Source: Deltaproteobacteria bacterium (GTDB taxonomy: Bacteria; Myxococcota_A; UBA796; UBA9615). From it: 34,007 nucleotides of DNA. Positions within the stretch are counted from its first letter, which is position 1. Each line of letters opens with the position of its first letter. A program made the translations under genes and the position numbers. Positions 777 through 18,612 of this stretch are shown piece by piece. Where the stretch lies: the NCBI GenBank assembly GCA_023954745.1, contig JAGSHC010000044.1, positions 1-34,007 on the forward strand, read 5' to 3'. Under the pieces are notes generated by a model. It searched no databases and was not told the DNA's origin. It saw only the letters and a list, made by a program, of their open reading frames with translations.

Positions 777-1754
777 ATGCAGGCTGAATCTGCCAGTCCC
801 CACCTACTCGATCGTCGCGTGCTCTTCGTGCTCGGCAAAGGTGGTGTGGGAAAGTCCGTCGTCTCGGCAAGCCTCGGGCTGCTCGCCGCGGAGCGTGGAC
901 GGCGCGCGATCATCACCGAGGCCGCAGGCGCCGAGACCATGGCGGCGCTCTTCGATCGCGAACCGGTGGGCTACACCCCCGGGCGCCTGGCGACCAACTT
1001 GCAGGCCCTCTCCATTCAGCCCGGCGCCGCAGTGGAGGAGTATCTGGTCCGCACCCTGAAGTTCCGACTGGTCTACGAGATGGTCTTCCGCAACCGCTTC
1101 GTGGAGCCGTTCATGAGCGCGGTCATGGGTCTGTCGGACCTGATCACCGTCGGCAAGGTCATGGACCTGGAGTGGGAGCGGGTCGACGGCAGCTTCGGGC
1201 CCGACGCCGAGGGCCCCAACAAGTACGACCTGATCATTGTCGACTCTCCCGCCACCGGGCATGGACTGAGTCTGCTCCGGTCACCGCAGGCGATGATGGA
1301 CGTGACCCGGGTGGGGCCGCTGTTCAACAACGCGCGACTCATTCGCGACCTGCTCGCTGACGAGCAGAAGACGGGGGTGGTCCTCGTGACCCTCGCCGAA
1401 GACATGCCCGTGAGCGAGACCATCCAGGCCGCGACGGAGCTTCGAGAACGCGGGAACGTACACATCTCCGGCATCGTCGTGAACGGCGTAGTCCCCCCGG
1501 TGTTCGACGACCCCGCCACCGCAGAGTGCTGGGACCGGGTGCGCAGGCAGGGCCTCGAACTCGGAGGAGCGGCCGCGGAGTCAGTGCGAGACGCCGAGCG
1601 CTCCTTGCGCGACCGGAACCGCGCCGAGGAGCACATCGCCAGGCTTCGCGAGACCCTCGGACTGCCCCTCATCGAGCTCCCTCTCTTGAGCAAGCGCGAC
1701 CTGGATGCGAAGGCCCTCGCCGAGCTCGGGACCGTCCTGGGGGCCTGGTCGTGA
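777..1754 (+). CDS. ArsA/Get3-like P-loop ATPase, first of a pair
   Basis: A cytosolic SIMIBI-class ATPase of the anion-transporting ArsA family, about 325 residues. The deviant Walker A motif GKGGVGKS is at residues 20-27, and a Walker B/switch region reading IIVDSPATGHGLSLL lies near residue 155. The family includes arsenite-pump ATPases and Get3/TRC40 tail-anchored-protein chaperones. No arsB or arsR is nearby and I see no Cys-rich arsenite-binding site, so an arsenic role is not supported. The ATG at 777 is used; an in-frame GTG at 756 would add seven residues, and neither has a convincing ribosome-binding site. Its end overlaps the second ATPase by four bases (GTGA), so the two are translationally coupled and may form a heterodimer. 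That last point is inference. Confidence 0.85.
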   Translation: MQAESASPHLLDRRVLFVLGKGGVGKSVVSASLGLLAAERGRRAIITEAAGAETMAALFDREPVGYTPGRLATNLQALSIQPGAAVEEYLVRTLKFRLVYEMVFRNRFVEPFMSAVMGLSDLITVGKVMDLEWERVDGSFGPDAEGPNKYDLIIVDSPATGHGLSLLRSPQAMMDVTRVGPLFNNARLIRDLLADEQKTGVVLVTLAEDMPVSETIQAATELRERGNVHISGIVVNGVVPPVFDDPATAECWDRVRRQGLELGGAAAESVRDAERSLRDRNRAEEHIARLRETLGLPLIELPLLSKRDLDAKALAELGTVLGAWS

Positions 1755-2911
1755 GCGACTCTTCGGCACCGGATCTGAACGAGGTCGTGAAGGCGCACAA
1801 GGTCCTCGTGATCTGTGGGACGGGCGGGGTAGGAAAGACCACGGTGTCCGCGTCCATCGCCCTCGGGGCGGCCCTGGCTGGCCAGCGGGTCCTGGTGATG
1901 ACCATCGACCCGGCGAAGCGGCTGGCGGACTCCCTCGGCGTGGTGGGCAAGCTCAATGAAGCCACGCCCATCGACCTGCGCGCGGCCCTCGGGGACGACG
2001 TGGAGCTCAGCGAAGGTGGCTCGCTGCACGCGATGATGCTCGACGCAAAGGGCACCTGGGACGACACCGTCCGGCGCTTCGCCAAGTCGCAAGACACCCA
2101 GGACCGCATCTTCAACAACAACTACTACCAGCGCGCCAGCGAGTCCCTCTCGGGATCCCAGGAGTACATGGCGATGGAGCGGCTGCTCGAGATGCACGCC
2201 ACCGAGGCCTACGACCTCGTGGTGCTCGACACCCCACCGACCCGCAACGCGCTGGACTTCCTCGAGGCTCCCGACCGACTCATGGCGGTGTTGGAGGAGG
2301 GGATCCTCGGCTGGCTGATCCCGAAGAAGCGCGGACGCTTCTCCCCCGTCGCCGCCGGGGCTCGTCTGTTTGGGAGGGGCCGCGAGGCGATGTTCAACGT
2401 GCTCGAGCGCTTCATGGGCGCGGACGTCATCCGCGGACTGGCCGACTTCATCAGCGCCATGTCGGAGCTGTTGGACGGTATGCGTTCGAGGGCCGGCGAG
2501 GTGATGGAGCTGCTCCGCAGCGAGGACTGCGCCTTCCTCATGGTGGCGGCGCCCAACCGCATCGCCCTGAGCGAAGGGCTGTACTTCCACGATCGGCTCG
2601 CCGAGGCAGGCATCCCATTCCGTGGGTTCGTCATCAACCGGGTCCGGCCCGCGTTCGGCGAGGGCAAGACGCCCGCGACGCCTTGGGAGTCCAACTGGAC
2701 TCGCTCCGGCGAGGCGACCTACGACGCCGCCGTGGAGCAGGTCTGGGACGAGCACCGCCGCCGCACCCGGTGGGCCCACGTCGACCGGCACCACATCAAC
2801 GCGCTCAAGGCGCACTGTGGTCCGACGCTGCCGTACGTCGAGATACCCGAGCTCGAGGGCGAGATCCACGACCTCGACGCCCTGCGCCTGCTGCTCGCCT
2901 ACCTCGAGTAG
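1751..2911 (+). CDS. ArsA/Get3-like P-loop ATPase, second of a pair
   Basis: A 386-residue ATPase of the same family as its upstream neighbour. The P-loop GTGGVGKTT is at residues 23-31, followed by a typical TIDPAKRLADSLG segment (switch I region). VVLDTPPTRNALDFL lies near residue 158 and a GFVINRVRP strand follows later. The start is the GTG at 1751, which overlaps the stop of the preceding gene (GTGA). The open frame runs further upstream, but that part only reads through the previous gene. Helix-rich middle residues (about 200-270) with Gly/Met/Leu content resemble the substrate-groove region of Get3-like proteins, but the client is unknown. The gene ends in a spacer with two 78-bp repeats and converges on the helicase gene. 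Confidence 0.87.
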   Translation: MSDSSAPDLNEVVKAHKVLVICGTGGVGKTTVSASIALGAALAGQRVLVMTIDPAKRLADSLGVVGKLNEATPIDLRAALGDDVELSEGGSLHAMMLDAKGTWDDTVRRFAKSQDTQDRIFNNNYYQRASESLSGSQEYMAMERLLEMHATEAYDLVVLDTPPTRNALDFLEAPDRLMAVLEEGILGWLIPKKRGRFSPVAAGARLFGRGREAMFNVLERFMGADVIRGLADFISAMSELLDGMRSRAGEVMELLRSEDCAFLMVAAPNRIALSEGLYFHDRLAEAGIPFRGFVINRVRPAFGEGKTPATPWESNWTRSGEATYDAAVEQVWDEHRRRTRWAHVDRHHINALKAHCGPTLPYVEIPELEGEIHDLDALRLLLAYLE

Positions 2912-2940
2912 ACGCAGCAAGCCGAGCGGAGGGAGGTCAA

Positions 2941-3018
2941 GGCGCGGAGGGAGACGTATTCCAATACGTCGCACCGACCGCCGACCGAAGTCGACTCGGA
3001 GCTCGGTCCCCTGGGACG
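2941..3018. repeat. 78-bp dispersed repeat, copy 1
   Basis: Direct repeat matching copy 2 (3063-3140) at 77 of 78 positions by eye; the difference is T versus G in GACTCGG/GACGCGG. Its core is the hairpin-forming GACGTATT-CC-AATACGTC at 2953-2970. It lies between the convergent ends of the second ATPase and the helicase gene. Related flanking words (GCCGAGCGG and GAGGTCAAGG) precede both copies. Confidence 0.85.
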
Positions 3019-3041
3019 AGCCGAGCGGCGTTCCAGGGGAC
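3006..3041. terminator. Stem-loop between convergent genes (possible bidirectional terminator)
   Basis: GTCCCCTGGGAC (3006-3017) pairs with GTTCCAGGGGAC (3030-3041), giving a 12-bp stem with one G-U pair around a 12-base loop. It spans the end of repeat copy 1 and the inter-repeat segment. No U-tract follows on either strand. A terminator role rests on the position between convergent stops; the stem could instead be part of the repeat itself. Confidence 0.35.
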
Positions 3042-3062
3042 TGAGGTCAAGGAGACGAGGGA

Positions 3063-3140
3063 GGCGCGGAGGGAGACGTATTCCAATACGTCGCACCGAC
3101 CGCCGACCGAAGTCGACGCGGAGCTCGGTCCCCTGGGACG
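3063..3140. repeat. 78-bp dispersed repeat, copy 2
   Basis: Second copy of the 78-bp element, with the same palindrome GACGTATT-CC-AATACGTC at 3075-3092. It ends three bases before the stop codon of the helicase gene (3144-3146, minus strand). There are 44 bases between the copies. No terminal transposase gene, target-site duplication or other copy was seen in the window. Confidence 0.85.
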
Positions 3141-3143
3141 CCG

Positions 3144-5321
3144 CTACTGGCCGGCGAGCATGGCCTCGGCGACGATCGGCGACGGCTCACCGACGCTCGT
3201 CACCCACAGCTGGTGCGCGGCGCGGGTGGCTCCCACGTGCATCTGGCGGCGGGCGGCCGGGGTGGCCGGCCAGCTCTCCGCGGAGACGTCCAGCAGCACG
3301 ACGTAGTCGAACTCGAGGCCCTTGGCCTGCTGCACGTCCGTCACCTCGATGCCGGCGGTGAAGCTGAAGTCCTGGTTCGCGACCCGCCGCAGCTTGTCGA
3401 GACCAGCCCGCTCCAGGCCTTCGTAGTACATGTCGGCCATGTTGGGCGTGCGTGCGAGGAGGGCCACGGACGCCTTCGGCTCGTTCTGCTCGAGGTCGCG
3501 CAGGGCGTCCACCATGAAGACGAGGGCCTCACCGTGGTCACCGAAGCTGAACACCTCCACCGGGGCGCCGTCACGGGCACCGCGGGGCGGCTCGTCGTCC
3601 TCGGCCAGGGGTCCGAGGACCTTCAAGGCGAAGTCGACGATGGGCTGCGTCGAGCGGTAGGACACCTTGAGGGTGTTCACCGCCGTGCCCTTCACGCCCA
3701 GGTGTCCGAAGAACTCCTCCCAGTTCGTGAAGCCGGCCTCTTGCAGCACGTGCTGCTGGGTGTCGCCCGCGAGGGTCAGGGAGCGCTCCGTGCTGGTGCA
3801 GTCCATGAGCACGCGCACCTCCAGCGGCGAGAGGTCCTGGACCTCGTCGATCACCAGGTGGGTGTACCGCAGCGGACGGCCGCGGCGAATGGACAGTGGG
3901 CCCACGCGGAGCTGGTAGAGACGGAGCAGCAGCGGATCGTCCTCGTCGTCGAGGAAGGTCTCGGTGTGGACCTCGTCCTTCTCCTCCGGGTCGTCCGGCT
4001 CCGACGTGTCGGGGTTGAGCCACTCCATGAGCAGGTCGACCTGGCGAGCCGTCCAGCTCACGAAGCGGTCGTAGTCGTCGTCCGTGAAGACGCCGGGGGC
4101 GTGCTTGTTGAAGCCTCGCTTGAGCCGAGCGCGGTCCGTCATCAGCGACATCCAGTCGTCGATGACCTGGCGCGGATCCTTGTGGCCCTTGCTGCGCCGG
4201 ATGTAGGTCTCCATGACCTTGAGCATCGCGGGGTGCAGCTTCATGCGGGTCACGATGGCCGGCGTGTCGTCGCTGCGCTCGCCGGGCAGGAACTGGAAGT
4301 GCCGCGAGAGGATGTTGTGGGCCCACTCCCCGAAGGTGCGGACGGGCACGCCGCCGACTCCGAGGTTGTCGAGGAGGCGGGAGATGAAGGCGCGCATGGC
4401 CTTGCTCCACACCACCACCATCATCCGGTCCTTACGGAACCGACGGCCGTCGAGGTAGTTGAGGTAGGCGAGGCGGTGCAGAGCCACCGTCGTCTTCCCG
4501 GAACCCGCGACGCCGCGGATGACGACCAGCTGGCTTTCACCCTCGGTGATGATCTTGAACTGCTCGGGGTCGATCAGGGCGCTGATCTCCGGCAGGTGCT
4601 TGTCGACCCGGTAGGCCTGACGGCTGCCGATGGTGCGACCCGCGGCCTCGTCACCACCGTTGTAGAACTTCAGGACGTCGCCGCCGCCACCCTCGAGCTT
4701 CGGGGCGCTGTCGGTCAGGTCGATCCAGCCACCGTCGGCGCCGCGGAACCAGGTGCCGTCGGGGCACTGCACGCGCTTGAGCTCGCCACCGTGCACGGCG
4801 AGGGTGCGTCGGGAGACGACCGTGCCTTCCTTGAGGCGGTCCCCGAAGAACTCCTCGTACTCGTCGCCCTCGGCGTGCCGGTAGAAGAGCGCGCTCACGG
4901 GAGCGTGGCGCCAGTCGACGATGCGCAGGCCGTTGTCGAGGCGCGTGGCGTTCCCGAGGAACACGTGACGCGTCTTGCCGCCCTCGTCGAGCTCCATGTG
5001 AGCGAAGTAGGGGCGCTCTGCGTCGACGCCGCCACCCTCTTCCTGGGAGCGACCCGCCTGCTCGATGAGGTGGCCGAGGCGCTCGTACTGCATCAGCAGC
5101 GAGGGGCGCTCATCGGTCTGGGCCTGGGGGATCTCGTCACGGAGACGGGCCATCTCACGCACGATGGCGTCGATGTCCACGTTGGCCATCGGGGGCCGCT
5201 TCGCGAGGCGAGTGCGGGTGTCCGCGAGGAATTTGACCTCCTCGGCGACGACGTCGGGGAGGCCAGCATTGGCGTCGACATCGACGGTTGAGGGGGACGA
5301 CTTGCTAGTTGTTGACGACAT
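3144..5321 (-). CDS. HelD-like superfamily 1 (UvrD/Rep-type) ATPase/helicase
   Basis: About 725 residues. A helical N-terminal region leads into a PYFAHMELDE...IVDWRHAPVSALFY segment, the HelD-type signature. This is followed by Walker A GVAGSGKTTVALHRLAYL near residue 270, Walker B VIDEVQDLSPLEV, motif IV-like VSYRSTQPIVDF, QQAKGLEFDYVVLLD and the terminal VGATRAAHQLWV. HelD proteins of Gram-positive bacteria clear stalled RNA polymerase from DNA; a helicase acting on DNA is the alternative. The start is uncertain: ATG 5321 (GAGAA six bases upstream) is preferred over ATG 5333. The first residues are Ser/Thr/Asp-rich and probably disordered. It lies downstream of the alpha/beta hydrolase with a 137-base gap that holds an AT-rich patch, so it may have its own promoter. 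Confidence 0.85.
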   Translation of the reverse strand: MSSTTSKSSPSTVDVDANAGLPDVVAEEVKFLADTRTRLAKRPPMANVDIDAIVREMARLRDEIPQAQTDERPSLLMQYERLGHLIEQAGRSQEEGGGVDAERPYFAHMELDEGGKTRHVFLGNATRLDNGLRIVDWRHAPVSALFYRHAEGDEYEEFFGDRLKEGTVVSRRTLAVHGGELKRVQCPDGTWFRGADGGWIDLTDSAPKLEGGGGDVLKFYNGGDEAAGRTIGSRQAYRVDKHLPEISALIDPEQFKIITEGESQLVVIRGVAGSGKTTVALHRLAYLNYLDGRRFRKDRMMVVVWSKAMRAFISRLLDNLGVGGVPVRTFGEWAHNILSRHFQFLPGERSDDTPAIVTRMKLHPAMLKVMETYIRRSKGHKDPRQVIDDWMSLMTDRARLKRGFNKHAPGVFTDDDYDRFVSWTARQVDLLMEWLNPDTSEPDDPEEKDEVHTETFLDDEDDPLLLRLYQLRVGPLSIRRGRPLRYTHLVIDEVQDLSPLEVRVLMDCTSTERSLTLAGDTQQHVLQEAGFTNWEEFFGHLGVKGTAVNTLKVSYRSTQPIVDFALKVLGPLAEDDEPPRGARDGAPVEVFSFGDHGEALVFMVDALRDLEQNEPKASVALLARTPNMADMYYEGLERAGLDKLRRVANQDFSFTAGIEVTDVQQAKGLEFDYVVLLDVSAESWPATPAARRQMHVGATRAAHQLWVTSVGEPSPIVAEAMLAGQ

Positions 5322-5333
5322 GGCGTTTCTCAT

Positions 5334-5458
5334 GGGGCGGGCAACCTGCCACCGGTCCTGTGAATTGGCAAGCCCCATTCTGCGTTTTGGTCGTAAGGTA
5401 TTGATTTTCAATAGCTTTAGGCGCACCGAACGACAGATAAGACCCCGAAAGTGCCTCG
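5334..5458 (-). promoter_or_regulatory. AT-rich leader upstream of the HelD-like gene with inverted repeat
   Basis: This gap contains one of the few AT-rich stretches of the window (about 5385-5425), including the perfect inverted repeat TATTGA-TTT-TCAATA (5399-5413). I could not settle on a well-spaced -35/-10 pair, although TTGAAA is present on the minus strand. It may hold the helicase promoter and an operator. Confidence 0.3.
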
Positions 5459-6334
5459 TCAGCTCTCCAGAAACCCGGCGATCTCGCCGGCCAGGAGGGA
5501 CGGAACTTCGTAGTGCACCATGTGTCCGCAGTCCTCGAAGTGCACGTGTCGACGCGTGGCGAGACGAGCCCGACGCGCCTCGAGGTCCGGCCACTTGTAC
5601 CAACTACGGCCCCCCGTCACGGTCAACACCGGACAGCTGATCGCCTCGAGGAACGGGGTGTAGCGCGCGGGCCTGTAGAGCTGCGGAGTGCGCGCTCGAT
5701 GCCACACGTCGTGGCGATAACGGACTTCCCCCTCGACCTCCTCGGCCAACCAGCCCGCGAGCTCCGCGGCCCGCTCCGGCGTAACCCGCGGGTTCTGGCG
5801 CGCCAGGCGTGAGGCCACATCGTCATAGGACGAGAATGGACGACTTCCTCGGGGGCCGTCGGCCAGCTCCTTCACCCAGCGAGCCATGCGCGCCGGGCCA
5901 TCACTGAGGTCCTCTTCCGGGGGCCCGAGCCCCTCGACGAGCACGAGACGGACGACTTCTTCGGCATACGTGCCGGCAAAGAGCACGGAGATCCCGCCGC
6001 CCATGGAGTGCCCGAGCACAGCCAGACTCCCCTCCCCGAGGGCGTCGACGACGGCGCGCACATCCCGCACGTAGTCGGAGAAGTGGTACCAGGTCGATCG
6101 GTCGATACGCCCCGACTCGCCGTGCCCGCGCATGTCCGGTGCGAGTACACGAAGCCAGGGCGGGAGCTCACGAACGAGGGGCGCAAAGGTGCCACCGCAG
6201 TCGAGGTATCCGTGGAGCAACAGCAGCGTGCGCGGGGCCCCAGGAGGTGGCTCTCCGTGGCCTTCCCAGACGTGGACACGAAGAGAGAGACCGGCGCTGT
6301 CGACGCGCTCGGTGCGGGGATCATCTTGACGCAA
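5459..6334 (-). CDS. Alpha/beta hydrolase (Ser nucleophile)
   Basis: A 291-residue cytoplasmic alpha/beta-hydrolase-fold protein. The oxyanion motif LLLLHGYLD is near residues 37-45, RGHGESG near 69-75, the nucleophile elbow is GHSMGG with Ser110, and the catalytic His is probably H271 (CGHMVHYEVP). The acid residue is less clear; TGGRSWYKWPD near residue 235 is a candidate. The substrate cannot be told from sequence: esterases, lipases, epoxide hydrolases and MenH-like enzymes share this pattern. The start is TTG at 6334, chosen because a strong GGAGGA lies eight bases upstream and no ATG or GTG fits the conserved N-terminus. It is divergent from the exonuclease gene with a 50-base gap. Confidence 0.82.
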   Translation of the reverse strand: MRQDDPRTERVDSAGLSLRVHVWEGHGEPPPGAPRTLLLLHGYLDCGGTFAPLVRELPPWLRVLAPDMRGHGESGRIDRSTWYHFSDYVRDVRAVVDALGEGSLAVLGHSMGGGISVLFAGTYAEEVVRLVLVEGLGPPEEDLSDGPARMARWVKELADGPRGSRPFSSYDDVASRLARQNPRVTPERAAELAGWLAEEVEGEVRYRHDVWHRARTPQLYRPARYTPFLEAISCPVLTVTGGRSWYKWPDLEARRARLATRRHVHFEDCGHMVHYEVPSLLAGEIAGFLES

Positions 6335-7095: not shown

Positions 7096-7164
7096 CTCCT
7101 CCGCCTTCCCTCCTTGCCTTCCGCCGCCGACGACCTAGGTTCCTCGGCCCCGGAGAATGTGACC

Positions 7165-10100
7165 ATGTCTCGCCATCCCACCCCGCCGAACGCCGCCGGC
7201 CTCCCTCAGTCTGAGGAGGAGGTCCTCGCGTTCTGGCAGGAGCACAGCGTCTTCGAGAAGACGCTCAGCAAGCCCGCTCCCAACGGCTCCTTCGTCTTCT
7301 TCGAGGGTCCCCCCACCGCCAACAACGTGCCGCACGTCGGCCACGCCCTCACCCGTGCCATCAAGGACGTGGTCCCTCGGTTCCGCACGATGCGCGGCTT
7401 CCGCGTGGACCGGAAGGCCGGCTGGGACACCCACGGCCTTCCAGTGGAGATCTCCATCGAGAAGGAGCTGGGCTTCACCGACAAGCACGCAGTCGAGCAG
7501 TACGGCATCGAGGCCTTCAACGAGAAGTGCTTCCAGTCGGTCCGCCGCTACGAGCGTGACTGGGTGCATGCCAGCGAGCGCCTGGGCTTCTGGCTCGACT
7601 ACGACAACGCCTACTTCACGTTCCTGAACACCTACGTCGAGAGCGTCTGGTGGATCCTCAACCGCATGTTCGACGAGGACATGCTGTACGAGGGGCACAA
7701 GGTCCTGCCGTACTGCCCGCTCTGCGGCACGACGCACAGCTCCCACGAGGTCGCGCAGGCCTACAAGGACGTGGCAGACCCCAGCGTCACCATCGCCTTC
7801 GAGGTCCTCCCAGGTCAGAGCCGAGGGGACGTCGACTTCGACGGCGTCTACGTCACCGCTTGGACGACGACCCCCTGGACGCTGCCGTCGAACATGGCGA
7901 CCTGCGTGCACCCGGAGTTCACCTACAAGCTCGTGGAGAGCAAGGCCCACCCGGGCCGCCGCTACCTGCTCGCTGAAGGCCTGCAGAGCCCTGCCCTGGA
8001 GCGGGTCGGCAAGGAGACCTTCGACCTCGGAGCCGCTCCCGCCCTCGCCACGTTCACCGGCAAGGAGCTCGAAGGGCTCCAGTACGAGCCTCTGTTCGGG
8101 TTCTCGGGGACCGGCACCGACGCCGAGGAGGACCGAGGCGCCAACTGGCAGATCACCGCCGACCCCTACGTCACCCTCGACTCGGGCACCGGCATCGTGC
8201 ACGTCGCCCCCGCCTTCGGTGAGGACGACCATCGCGTGGGCAACCGGTACGGACTCGACCTGTACTGCGCCATGAAGCTGGACGGGAAGTTCAAGGACCA
8301 CGCCGGCGCTCTGGCCGGCCTGTGGTTCAAGGACGCCGATCCCATCGTCACCCGGGACCTCAAAGACCGCGGTCAGCTGGTCTTCTCCACGAAGTACGAG
8401 CACCCCTACCCGCACTGCTGGCGCCACAACACGCCGCTGTACTACTTCGCCACGTCCTCCTGGTTCGTGCGTACGACGGCGATGAAGGACGAGCTCATCG
8501 CCGGCAACCAGACCGTCGACTGGAACCCTGCTCACATCAAGGACGGCCGCTTCGGTAAGTGGCTGGACGGGGTCGTGGATTGGGCGCTGTCCCGCAAGCG
8601 CTACTGGGGGACTCCGCTGCCCATCTGGCGATGCGACGAGTGCGGTGACATCGAGTGCTTCGGCTCCTTCGAGTCGCTCTTCGCGCGCGCTGGCAAGCCG
8701 TTGCCGGGAGACCCCTACGACCGGGAGCAGTGGAACCCCCACCGTCCCTACGTCGACGACATCTCCTTCTCGTGCAGCGCCTGCGACGGCGGCACGAAGA
8801 ACCGCGTCGTGGAGGTCATCGACTGCTGGTTCGACGCCGGCTCGATGCCGTTTGCGCAGCACCACTATCCCTTCAACAAGGAGATGGCGGAGCGCATCGA
8901 CAGCGGGGACGCCTTCCCCGCGGACTTCATCAGCGAGGCGGTCGACCAGACGCGGGGCTGGTTCTACACGCTGCACGTCATCTCGACGTTCCTGAAGAAG
9001 CGCCCCGCCTACAAGAGCGTCATCGTGTTGGGCCACGTGCTCGATGAAGACGGTCGCAAGATGTCGAAGAGCATCGGCAACGTCGTCGCTCCCGGGCCGA
9101 TCATCGATCAGTTCGGGGCGGACGCCTTCCGGTGGTTCTTCTACCGCGCCAACCCCACCCAGCCGTCCCGCTTCGGCCCGGCGATGGTGCGGGACAGCCT
9201 CAAGCTGTTCACCATCCCGTTGCTCAACGCGTGGCAGTTCTTCTCCATCTACGCGGGCATCGACGGCTTCACCCCGGCCGGTGAAGGCGCGACGCCTCGG
9301 CCGCAGGTAGCGGAGCGCGCCGACCTGGACCGTTGGGTCCTGAGCCTGCTCCAGCAGACGGTGGGCGAGGTGACCGCAGCCCTCGAAGGCAACCGGCTCA
9401 ACGTCGCGGCGAACGCCCTCGAGAGCTTCGTGGAGTCCCTGACCAACTGGTACATCCGTCGGTCTCGGCGGCGTTTCTGGAAGGCCGAAGGCGACACCGA
9501 CAAGCACGCTGCCCATTGGACTCTGTATGAGGTGCTGGTCTCCTTGAGTCAGTTGCTCGCGCCCTTCATGCCGTTCCTCGCCGAGCGCATGCATCAGGAC
9601 CTCGTGCGGGGCTTCGATGCCAGCGCGCCCGTCTCGGTCCACCTCACCGACTGGCCTTCCGTGGACGCCGACGCCATCGACAGCGTCGTGCTCGTGCGCC
9701 AGGCCGCAGCCCGGCAGCTCGTGACTCTGGGCCATGCGGCCCGGCAGGAAGCCGCCATCGGCGTGCGTCAGCCCCTCGCCGCGGCCACCGTGGTGAGCGT
9801 CGACGACGAGCTGCTCGCAGCCCTGTCCCACGAAGGCACCGCGGCCATCGTGCGGGACGAGCTCAACGTGAAGGAGCTCCGCTTCGCCGAGGACCGCGCT
9901 GCGTACGTTGACTACACCGTCAAGCCCAACTTCCGCGCCCTCGGGAAGCGGCTGGGCAAGCGCATGAAGCTGTGCGCACAAGCGGTCGGCCAGATGGCGC
10001 CCAACGACCTCTTGGCGGCCCTCGAGGCAGACGGCAAGGCCGTGGTGGTGCCTTCTGACGGTGAGCCCATCGAGCTGGAGGCCCACGAGCTGGACATCCG

Positions 10101-10440
10101 CATCCAGCAGAAGCCGGGCACGGTGTCGGCCTTCGACGAGCAGGCTCTCGTGGCGCTGGATACCGAGGTCGATGACGCCTTGGCGGCGGAAGGTCTCGCG
10201 CGCGAGGTCATCAACCGGATCCAGGGTCTCCGCAAGGACCGCGACTTGGCCTACGACGACCGCATCGCGGTGCAGTGGGACGCCGGGCAAGAGGTAGCGG
10301 CGGCGTTGGCCAAGCACCAACAGCTGGTGATGGACGAAGTCCTGGCGGTGGACATGCAGCGGGTGGACGGACTGAGCGGAGCGGTGTCTGCTGACCTTCG
10401 TGGCGAGTCCTTCACCGCGGACCTGGTGGTGAGTCAGTGA
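7165..10440 (+). CDS. ileS: Isoleucyl-tRNA synthetase, type 2 (eukaryote-like)
   Basis: Charges tRNA-Ile with isoleucine. About 1091 residues, longer than the usual ~940-residue bacterial type 1 enzyme. The class I signature HVGH is at residues 57-60 and KMSKS at 632-636. GWDTHGLPVE, the ESVWW...VLPYCPLCGTTHSSHE block, YKDVADPSV and the C-terminal GLAREVINRIQGLRKDRDL are features I associate with type 2 enzymes (eukaryotic, archaeal and some bacteria), many of which resist mupirocin. Cys pairs (CPLC, CDEC, CSAC) suggest zinc sites in the editing and catalytic regions. The ATG at 7165 follows GGAGA by nine bases and is preferred to the upstream codon at 7114. The last four bases overlap the GTG start of the sigma-factor gene. 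Confidence 0.95.
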   Translation: MSRHPTPPNAAGLPQSEEEVLAFWQEHSVFEKTLSKPAPNGSFVFFEGPPTANNVPHVGHALTRAIKDVVPRFRTMRGFRVDRKAGWDTHGLPVEISIEKELGFTDKHAVEQYGIEAFNEKCFQSVRRYERDWVHASERLGFWLDYDNAYFTFLNTYVESVWWILNRMFDEDMLYEGHKVLPYCPLCGTTHSSHEVAQAYKDVADPSVTIAFEVLPGQSRGDVDFDGVYVTAWTTTPWTLPSNMATCVHPEFTYKLVESKAHPGRRYLLAEGLQSPALERVGKETFDLGAAPALATFTGKELEGLQYEPLFGFSGTGTDAEEDRGANWQITADPYVTLDSGTGIVHVAPAFGEDDHRVGNRYGLDLYCAMKLDGKFKDHAGALAGLWFKDADPIVTRDLKDRGQLVFSTKYEHPYPHCWRHNTPLYYFATSSWFVRTTAMKDELIAGNQTVDWNPAHIKDGRFGKWLDGVVDWALSRKRYWGTPLPIWRCDECGDIECFGSFESLFARAGKPLPGDPYDREQWNPHRPYVDDISFSCSACDGGTKNRVVEVIDCWFDAGSMPFAQHHYPFNKEMAERIDSGDAFPADFISEAVDQTRGWFYTLHVISTFLKKRPAYKSVIVLGHVLDEDGRKMSKSIGNVVAPGPIIDQFGADAFRWFFYRANPTQPSRFGPAMVRDSLKLFTIPLLNAWQFFSIYAGIDGFTPAGEGATPRPQVAERADLDRWVLSLLQQTVGEVTAALEGNRLNVAANALESFVESLTNWYIRRSRRRFWKAEGDTDKHAAHWTLYEVLVSLSQLLAPFMPFLAERMHQDLVRGFDASAPVSVHLTDWPSVDADAIDSVVLVRQAAARQLVTLGHAARQEAAIGVRQPLAAATVVSVDDELLAALSHEGTAAIVRDELNVKELRFAEDRAAYVDYTVKPNFRALGKRLGKRMKLCAQAVGQMAPNDLLAALEADGKAVVVPSDGEPIELEAHELDIRIQQKPGTVSAFDEQALVALDTEVDDALAAEGLAREVINRIQGLRKDRDLAYDDRIAVQWDAGQEVAAALAKHQQLVMDEVLAVDMQRVDGLSGAVSADLRGESFTADLVVSQ

Positions 10441-15370: not shown

Positions 15371-16300
<930 letters not shown>

Positions 16301-16530
16301 GGTTGGCTTGGTCTCCCCAAGTGCCAGGTCAGGGGGTCCGCGAGGGAACACCCCCCGCAGTGGGGAGATCATCGGCGGGGGCGCCGCAGCTCCCTAGGGC
16401 GGCGCCGGACACGTGCGACGAGGCGCACGTGCTCGAAAAGACACGGGTTTCAGACGGCCCGATCGGTCCAAACCACGCCGCGGACGCAGCGCAGACACCG
16501 ACCTTGGTCGTGGATGCGCCCCGGACGCAG

Positions 16531-16560
16531 GAAGGGCGAGGTCCGAAGACCTCGCCCTTC
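16531..16560 (-). terminator. Strong stem-loop downstream of lipoprotein 2
   Basis: A perfect 13-bp stem, GAAGGGCGAGGTC (16531-16543) with GACCTCGCCCTTC (16548-16560). On the minus strand the loop is the very stable tetraloop TTCG. It lies about 40 bases after the lipoprotein 2 stop and before the start of lipoprotein 1. No U-run follows, so termination is likely but not proven. Confidence 0.6.
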
Positions 16561-16572
16561 ACTGATTCGCTT

Positions 16573-16589
16573 TTCGGGTCAGACCCGAA
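16573..16589 (-). terminator. Small hairpin after lipoprotein 2 stop
   Basis: TTCGGGT (16573-16579) pairs with ACCCGAA (16583-16589) around a 3-base loop, 9 bases past the stop codon. On the minus strand AAAG follows rather than U. It sits just before the larger TTCG hairpin, so the two may act together as terminator or mRNA 3'-end protection. Confidence 0.35.
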
Positions 16590-16598
16590 GAACGTCGA

Positions 16599-17537
<939 letters not shown>

Positions 17538-17553
17538 CTTCATCTCTCCGTGG

Positions 17554-17598
17554 GTGCCAGGTGGCGGGGTCATGCAGCGGGCCTGTCTTGACCCCGCC
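17554..17598 (-). promoter_or_regulatory. Leader block and hairpin of lipoprotein 2
   Basis: On the minus strand GGCGGGGTCA (17589-17598) pairs perfectly with TGACCCCGCC (17563-17572) around a 16-base loop. ACCTGGCAC (17554-17562) follows, a 9-base word also found at 16321-16329 at a similar distance from the lipoprotein 1 start. The hairpin could end lipoprotein 3 transcripts or control lipoprotein 2 translation. Confidence 0.4.
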
Positions 17599-17652
17599 GC
17601 GGATATTGCTCTGCCTTCGCAGAGGAAAAAAGGGCTACTAGGCGCCCGACTC

Positions 17653-18612
17653 CTACTGAAGGATCCAGAAGGAACCGAGCTGGTAAGCCCCACTCAGGTC
17701 TGTCTCAGGGGGTCCTCCCACTGGATCGGGTCGAAACACGAACCAGAAGGCGGACCAGTCTTCACCGGCTCCTGAAGAGCCGGCGACGGTATCGAAAGCA
17801 ATGTCGTCAAACACGGTGCCCCCTGCGGAGGACACGAAGCCGACGTGAGTCATGCGGTTGCCGGTCGTCGCGATCTGCCCCGCCTGGGTCGCCAGGTCGA
17901 GGTCGCCACTGCGCGAAGGCTGCACGCCCAAGTCGACGGCGGTCTCGAGGTCCATGAGCGCGATCTGCAGCAGCCCGCCACCGGCGGCGGTGCTCCCCGG
18001 CGCGGTGAACAGCTGGCCCAGGTCGCGATTGACCGACGCCAGATCCGCGGGGTCACACGCCTCAGGGTCCAAAGCCCGGTTCGAGGCGTCAATCACGCTC
18101 GACGGCTCGATGTCCAGCACTCCTGTGCATCCCGCGCAGGTCGAGACGAGGTTCGGCGCGAAGTCCACAACCCCGGTCCACGAGATCGTCTGCACGCATT
18201 CCACGAGGCCGGCCTCGAAGTCACGCCAGTAGTCGAGAACGAAGGTTCCCTCGACAGCGGCGGGGTCCCGCGCGGTCACGCCGCCTCCGGCGCTGTCGTC
18301 GTCGTCACCGCCCTCGACACCGGAGTCGTCGTCGTCGGCTGAGTCGTCATCGTCGTCCGCGACGTCGTCGTCGTCAGCCGTCGCGTCGTCGTCGTCGCCC
18401 TGGGCCTGCGCCACCAGGGCGCCCCGAAGCGTGACCGAGGAGTACTCGAAGGCGAGGTCGTCGTCGTCCGCGAGATCGTCGTCGTCGCCGACGAAGTCGT
18501 CGTCGTTGCCGAAGTCGTCGTCATCCGACCCACCCGAGGGGCAGCCGACGAGTCCGAGGACCACGCCACCGGCGAGGAGAACGGACCATGACGTGGACGA
18601 CTGAACCAGCAC
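17653..18612 (-). CDS. Asp-repeat lipoprotein 3 (divergent paralogue)
   Basis: A 319-residue predicted lipoprotein with a textbook lipobox: LGLVGC, Cys24. The Asp tracts differ from its neighbours. Instead of one long poly-Asp run it has many 3-5 residue Asp clusters separated by Phe, Gly, Ala, Leu or Val (about residues 30-110), with only one or two DDDDSAG-like units. The C-terminal domain is a distant relative: GTFVLDYWRDFEAGLVECVQTISWTG, a CAGC pair, THVGFVSSAGG and LGSFWILQ all align with lipoproteins 1 and 2. The start is GTG 18612, with GAGAGGAG about ten bases upstream. It is first in the transcription order of the trio, so a promoter is expected in 18613-18813. The function is unknown. 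Confidence 0.83.
   Translation of the reverse strand: MLVQSSTSWSVLLAGGVVLGLVGCPSGGSDDDDFGNDDDFVGDDDDLADDDDLAFEYSSVTLRGALVAQAQGDDDDATADDDDVADDDDDSADDDDSGVEGGDDDDSAGGGVTARDPAAVEGTFVLDYWRDFEAGLVECVQTISWTGVVDFAPNLVSTCAGCTGVLDIEPSSVIDASNRALDPEACDPADLASVNRDLGQLFTAPGSTAAGGGLLQIALMDLETAVDLGVQPSRSGDLDLATQAGQIATTGNRMTHVGFVSSAGGTVFDDIAFDTVAGSSGAGEDWSAFWFVFRPDPVGGPPETDLSGAYQLGSFWILQ

Follow-up and report, generated by a model that had tools for sequence, protein, structure and literature searches.

Between two convergent genes of a Deltaproteobacteria bacterium lies a pair of near-identical, hairpin-bearing repeats. The locus raises the question of whether such a pair is a simple local duplication, a signal at the end of transcripts or a trace of a mobile element. 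It was analyzed in a stretch of 34,007 nucleotides (contig JAGSHC010000044.1, assembly GCA_023954745.1), termed the window. An earlier note, made from the sequence alone, had proposed a dispersed intergenic element of the REP or MITE kind, perhaps used as terminator or mRNA end.

Repeat copies and neighboring genes

A repeat search of the window placed the copies at 2940-3018 and 3062-3140, with a start-to-start spacing of 122 nt. Each comprises 79 nt, and 78 of 79 positions are identical. The single differing base of the earlier description is thus confirmed, together with the 8-bp stem around CC in both copies, the convergence of the flanking genes and the end of copy 2 three bases before a stop codon (Table 1). 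Copy 2 is complete and consists of a left arm (3024-3042), an 84-nt core (3043-3126) and a right arm (3127-3145); its outer stem extends into the HelD-like gene's stop codon. In a profile search, core positions 10-84 of copy 1 were matched at 2933-3004. This copy has no left arm of its own and lacks ~12 nt of the 5′ (left) core, but retains the tip hairpin, the right core and the right arm (3005-3018). A further 12-bp stem had been assigned to the segment joining the copies and copy 1. The pairing exists as an inverted repeat (2999-3018/3029-3048; 20 nt, 85%), because the right arms of copies 1 and 2 are identical in sequence. For the joining segment, the right arm of copy 2 is the better partner, 3024-3048 and 3121-3145 forming the outer stem of that copy over 25 nt (88%).

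Table 1. Coordinates of the features at the locus, numbered along the window
Feature	Position	Strand	Remarks
ArsA/BagB-like ATPase gene	1751..2911	+	stop TAG 2909-2911; ORF from 1526 possible; own gene caller
Element copy 1	2933..3018	+	79-nt repeat 2940-3018; R1 match 2904-3024, 62.0 bits
Tip hairpin, copy 1	2953..2970	+	GACGTATT-CC-AATACGTC; 8-bp stem around CC
Element copy 2, complete	3023..3146	+	R1 127.7 bits, E 1.4e-24, as a member of the R1 training set
Conserved 5′ collar GAGGTCAAGGAG, copy 2	3043..3054	+	A1 columns mostly invariant or nearly invariant; same plan across phylum copies
Tip hairpin, copy 2	3075..3092	+	helix 6 of alignment A3, 99.6% of cells paired
Conserved 3′ collar, copy 2	3115..3126	+	consensus GACGCNGAGATC, here GACGCGGAGCTC
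Stop codon (TAG) of HelD-like gene	3144..3146	-	CTA on +; adjoined by element
HelD/UvrD-type gene, anchored by element	3144..5603	-	start uncertain (own caller: 5378)

The ArsA/BagB-like protein matches ArsA_ATPase (PF02374) with 100 bits and the BagB model NF053621 with 282 bits, the latter under the cut-off. The HelD-like protein contains PF13361 and PF00580 and reaches 163 bits with the HelD model NF041464, also under the cut-off. Elsewhere in the window, an isoleucine--tRNA ligase (7114-10440) passes the general ileS model with 853 bits; against the model of mupirocin-resistant MupA it reaches 780 bits, which is under that cut-off. Three adjacent genes on the minus strand (15371-18612) have long repeats in common, with low-complexity GTCGTC runs and 21-bp units; they resemble a family of tandem paralogs containing Asp-rich stretches.

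Copy number and distribution

The genome of the window (G000) comprises 7.13 Mb in 481 contigs. A DNA search with positions 2930-3160 found at least 29 places in this genome at E≤1e-3. The covariance model R1, built from 21 genome copies with arms, matched at least 56 places at E≤0.1; the G000 counts include these training copies, and 56 is a lower bound, with 150 of 11,632 candidates scored. A local duplication is rejected on both counts. The genome-wide search that the earlier note had proposed thus returned further copies, and its dispersed, intergenic, MITE-like element was borne out, the many genome copies being sited at stop codons. Among the R1 matches is a shorter subtype of ~103 nt. 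At several sites, units of left arm plus core are repeated head to tail, and a single right arm closes the array. Because such arrays run off the ends of contigs C438, C68, C480 and C462, the copy count in G000 is probably a lower bound. The tip palindrome itself, searched with up to two mismatches and any middle pair, has no other occurrence in the 7.13-Mb genome.

R1 matches were obtained in 9 of 71 genomes of the class. A second model, R2, built from 78 copies, matched in at least 47 of the 377 phylum genomes (E≤1e-5, nine candidates scored per genome). The 23 further phylum loci examined have the same plan. The right flank is readable at 21 of them, and 15 of these are anchored on that side. 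One element copy (L114, 1072-1217) carries extra short hairpins at the tip. No match to the 4227 Rfam models was found in 2400-3700 at E≤1, and searches for the element in plasmids, phages and viral contigs of named organisms gave no useful match.

Fold and constrained strand

On the + strand, the copies fold as a single rod with outer arms of ~20 bp, a collar, short pairs, G/A-rich internal loops and a tip hairpin. A full copy has the conserved collar GAGGUCAAGGAG…GACGCNGAGAUC and the covarying tip hairpin GACGTATT/AATACGTC. To judge from their sequence, the internal loops probably form tandem sheared G·A pairs. The 124-nt rod of the window (3023-3146, +) reaches -85.8 kcal/mol with RNA parameters, compared to -48.6 ± 3.9 kcal/mol in 200 shuffles (z -9.6), and the copies are therefore not a product of chance. 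In alignment A3, which comprises 78 copies fitted to the structure of R1, 93.5% of cells are paired (66.9% after shuffling). The covariation score is 0.638, as against 0.179 in shuffled alignments and at most 0.113 with the partners slid, and both-sided changes occur in 31 of 36 pairs.

In 88 of 101 full-length copies, the two outer arms can be aligned over their entire length and are paired; their sequence varies from copy to copy. Left arms of different G000 copies are 41% identical, compared to 34% after shuffling (31 copies). Within a G000 copy, 91% of left-arm positions pair with the right arm; when the right arm is taken from another copy, 58% do. What the arms keep is therefore pairing, not sequence. 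Pairing is constrained on one strand only. Counted on the + strand in the outer arms, GU far exceeds AC, with ratios of 66:17 for the 34 copies of G000, 145:27 for 41 copies of the sister species G001, which are related by descent, and 32:2 for 13 copies from other genomes; the 13 of 101 copies whose arms do not align end to end were left out. The rod of the window is less stable on the - strand (-65.8 kcal/mol with RNA parameters). With DNA parameters, which may underrate G·A steps, -40.7 and -35.7 kcal/mol were calculated for the + and - strand, respectively, and the inner rod does not form. The GU excess and the fold energies favor the + strand, perhaps as RNA.

Position behind stop codons

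The 3′ side of the folded strand adjoins the stop of a gene transcribed in the opposite direction. According to our own codon-based gene caller, the right neighbor is a minus-strand stop at 90 of 102 sites, and the folded strand is therefore antisense to the abutted gene. Between co-directional neighbors the stop is on the right in 31 of 32 cases and the other way in one. Independently of the caller, anchoring was defined as an open frame of at least 90 codons with its stop within about -8 to +22 of the boundary. Both flanks were readable at 110 of 125 sites; 63 of these are anchored on the right only, 4 on the left only, 28 on both sides and 15 on neither. The distance from stop to element varies little and is in most cases -2 to -6 for G000 and 8 to 12 for G001.

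A fixed stop-codon word as target was rejected, all three stops being used. The anchored genes end with TAG in 50, TGA in 30 and TAA in 4 cases (n=84), the other genes at the loci in 56, 62 and 8 cases, respectively (n=126), so that TAG is only mildly over-represented.

The arms are specific to the elements and not generic to gene ends. Of 835 gene ends in 1.09 Mb of G000, on contigs picked mainly for holding copies, 18 show a 16-bp stem close to the stop codon (2 in the control). Eleven of these are at elements, five are short-loop hairpins and two are others. A core jumping into pre-existing terminator arms was rejected, as such stems are rare at gene ends and the empty sites are without a hairpin.

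Empty and filled sites

In a relative MAG (L032), the stops of the same HelD/ArsA gene pair are 3 nt apart (TAG-GGG-CTA), compared to 232 bp in the window. Two sites filled in the sister species G001 are empty in G000. The proteins at L127 (filled) and L200 (empty) are 82% identical, those at L145 (filled) and L213 (empty) 79%, and the same stop codon is retained in both cases. The insert at L145 is flanked by a 9-nt direct repeat, GAGGACTAG. Direct repeats that contain or touch the stop codon occur at corresponding element-relative positions at L145 (9 nt), L153 (10 nt), L160 (11 nt) and L158 (7 nt). Clean direct repeats are present at only 4 of 38 G001 sites, array and arm repeats at L130, L136, L151, L159 and L164 being excluded from the count; the 41 G000 sites yielded no convincing direct repeats. 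The empty orthologous sites and the short stop-containing direct repeats argue for insertion.

Truncation was counted at 30 loci. The truncated standalone copies (L016, L023, L025 and L027) have an intact stop-codon end and have lost the opposite end; array copies at L002, L005 and L029 lose the right collar, which was not counted as 5′ loss. In G001, identity reaches at least 95% in 38 of 900 between-locus comparisons, while the best of 940 pairs in G000 is at 86%; the sister species has amplified element subfamilies recently.

At least four orthologous stops are filled in both species with differing arms and core (L012/L140, L029/L144, L024/L138 and L120/L152), which reflects either re-use of the site or selection to keep an element there. 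L122/L141 is a fifth filled pair, orthologous by the left gene only. At L138 and L024, the proteins of the two species are 91% identical and the element subtype behind the same stop differs. A rapid replacement of the element at a fixed site may be read from this pair.

Origin and mobility

A dispersed element, constrained on one strand, inserted where relatives have empty sites, held in one orientation behind stops and found in head-to-tail arrays, is probably a non-autonomous mobile element of the stop-codon-proximal palindromic MITE kind, with the Yersinia element YPAL as its closest counterpart in print. It is short, non-coding, multicopy and dispersed, as MITEs are, and its outer arms, the sequence of which varies between copies, are terminal inverted repeats. 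Several results count against this reading. Clean direct repeats are rare, no transposase or reverse transcriptase gene searched tracks the element, at least four orthologous stops are filled in both species, and 98 of 118 readable right flanks are anchored (33 of 117 on the left), hence not every copy.

A maintained 3′-end structure is an unlikely but serious alternative. It would act as bidirectional terminator, mRNA stabilizer or antisense block, be under selection and be spread or homogenized by recombination. The strict adjacency to stop codons, the at least four orthologous sites filled in both species and the strong pairing constraint would agree with such a function, and for YPAL a possible influence on upstream transcripts is reported (PMC2229807). 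The mRNA of the anchored gene, however, does not correspond to the constrained strand, and comparable stems are absent from most gene ends. No intrinsic terminator (hairpin plus U-tract) was found in 2700-3400, and the window site has no U-tract. At L145 of G001, the insertion separates the stop codon from a terminator-like hairpin which is also found in G000. The role as terminator or mRNA end that the earlier note had considered is weakened by the antisense orientation of the folding strand, the missing U-tract terminator and this site. For the host gene, the element's most likely role is that of a passenger that is tolerated, not of a terminator.

An improbable route to mobility is that of a bacterial SINE-like retroposon, in which the 3′ end of a + strand RNA would be joined to a 3′-OH behind the stop and then reverse transcribed. 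With RNA parameters the rod is one well-defined fold, which it is not with DNA parameters. The GU excess in the outer arms, the intact stop-codon end of truncated standalone copies and the variable length of the direct repeats (7 to 11 nt) point in the same direction. Yet G000 encodes no RVT_1 protein, and over 40 genomes RVT_1 is present in 10 of 20 with elements and in 11 of 20 without; a reverse transcriptase as mobilizer was rejected for this lack of association. The best reverse transcriptase of G001 resembles retron/DRT types. Its gene (L167, 142-2280) encodes an N-terminal part of ~390 aa outside the RT match, and no element copies were found in the 3.5 kb examined around it. Extended to the phylum, the idea would define a retroposon-like (SINE-like) class with a structured RNA rod in which Watson-Crick and G·A steps alternate, 3′-end insertion exactly behind stops, always antisense, and arms selected for pairing only; as a model, such a class is rather doubtful.

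Mobilization as a REP element by a RAYT, an IS200/IS605-type Y1 transposase, is very improbable. A one-strand hairpin would suit such an enzyme, and G000 encodes a RAYT-like protein of 291 aa (L031, 904-1776), with a second homolog, 39% identical, on contig C361. Among 71 genomes, however, Y1 homologs occur in 3 of the 9 matched by R1 and in 17 of the other 62, and searches with R1 and R2 over ~1.5 kb on each side of the G000 gene (L031/L169) and its G001 homolog (L173) gave no match. The A1 columns hold no conserved GTAG tag, nor does a CGTC tag stand in conserved columns; CGTC is changed in L004 and absent from the tip hairpin in L108-L110. A RAYT-driven REP was rejected for want of both genome association and flanking copies. 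The REP-like character considered in the earlier note is not supported in the strict sense of the term either, the unit measuring ~124 nt and not the 20-40 bp of a REP palindrome.

The attC sites of integrons are template-strand hairpins that follow a stop codon, and the element fits this layout in position, orientation and folded strand. Folding of attC on the bottom strand has been described (PMC2727003), and class relatives G011 and G015 have clear integron integrases (L249 and L250; 445 and 380 bits). An attC-like site recombined by an integron-type integrase is nevertheless hardly credible and was rejected, since of six genomes only these two pass the integrase cut-off, G000 (best 95.7 bits, cut-off 265), G001, G048 and G035 do not, no fixed outer core box was found in the free columns of the outer arms, and the neighbors seen are ordinary chromosomal genes.

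Related elements

YPAL is reportedly placed close behind stop codons, as is the present element. YPAL (RU-2) is palindromic, intergenic and ~168 bp long, with direct repeats of variable length, and is described as mobile by empty and filled sites (PMC2229807). The comparison is drawn as an analogy of kind. Unlike YPAL, the element has a core of short Watson-Crick steps and G·A-type loops, sequence-free outer arms, a fixed orientation to the gene and a phylum-wide presence. REP/REPIN sequences with RAYT, including CGTC-tagged REPs, are likewise palindromic, multicopy and often grouped, and the hairpin of the earlier note ends in CGTC. REPs have a length of 20-40 bp and a GTAG or CGTC tag (PMC3733652), whereas the element is longer, its tag is not conserved (e.g. 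L004 and L108) and RAYT does not track it. The MITEs ERIC, RUP and Correia/NEMIS are also small and non-autonomous with inverted repeats. Most of them have terminal inverted repeats and a TA motif, and they are A+T-rich (PMC2229807); here, the arms vary by copy and the element is G+C-rich. Variable but complementary arms in a hairpin behind a stop codon are common to the element and integron attC, while core boxes, an integrase over the cut-off in G000 and cassettes were not seen.

Multicopy palindromic families of deltaproteobacterial Geobacter genomes are intergenic as well. One of them, with the center GRCGTAGCGCTGCTACGCC, differs in that its intergenic positions are described as, for example, 5′ regions (PMC2700814). 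The families of the Geobacter and Pelobacter genome papers could be related to the element (PMC2700814, PMC2996986, PMC3543383). In the literature searched, supplements of the Geobacter papers aside, no description of the element was found.

Mechanism and implications

For the mobile element favored here, the mobilizing enzyme would recognize a folded single strand, either RNA or ssDNA. Such recognition would explain that the outer arms keep pairing only. Joining would occur at the 3′ side of the folded strand, just behind the stop codon, because this end stays intact in truncated standalone copies. Among the candidate enzymes (Y1/RAYT and reverse transcriptase), no gene searched tracks the element across genomes.

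If this reading is true, a bacterial phylum has been colonized by a small mobile element that keeps its shape rather than its sequence. Its address would be strict, immediately after the stop codon, and its direction fixed. The question then arises which machinery recognizes gene ends whatever the stop codon, and whether it acts on a folded single strand. For annotators, the element would be a warning that long hairpins behind stops in such genomes can be insertions and not terminators.
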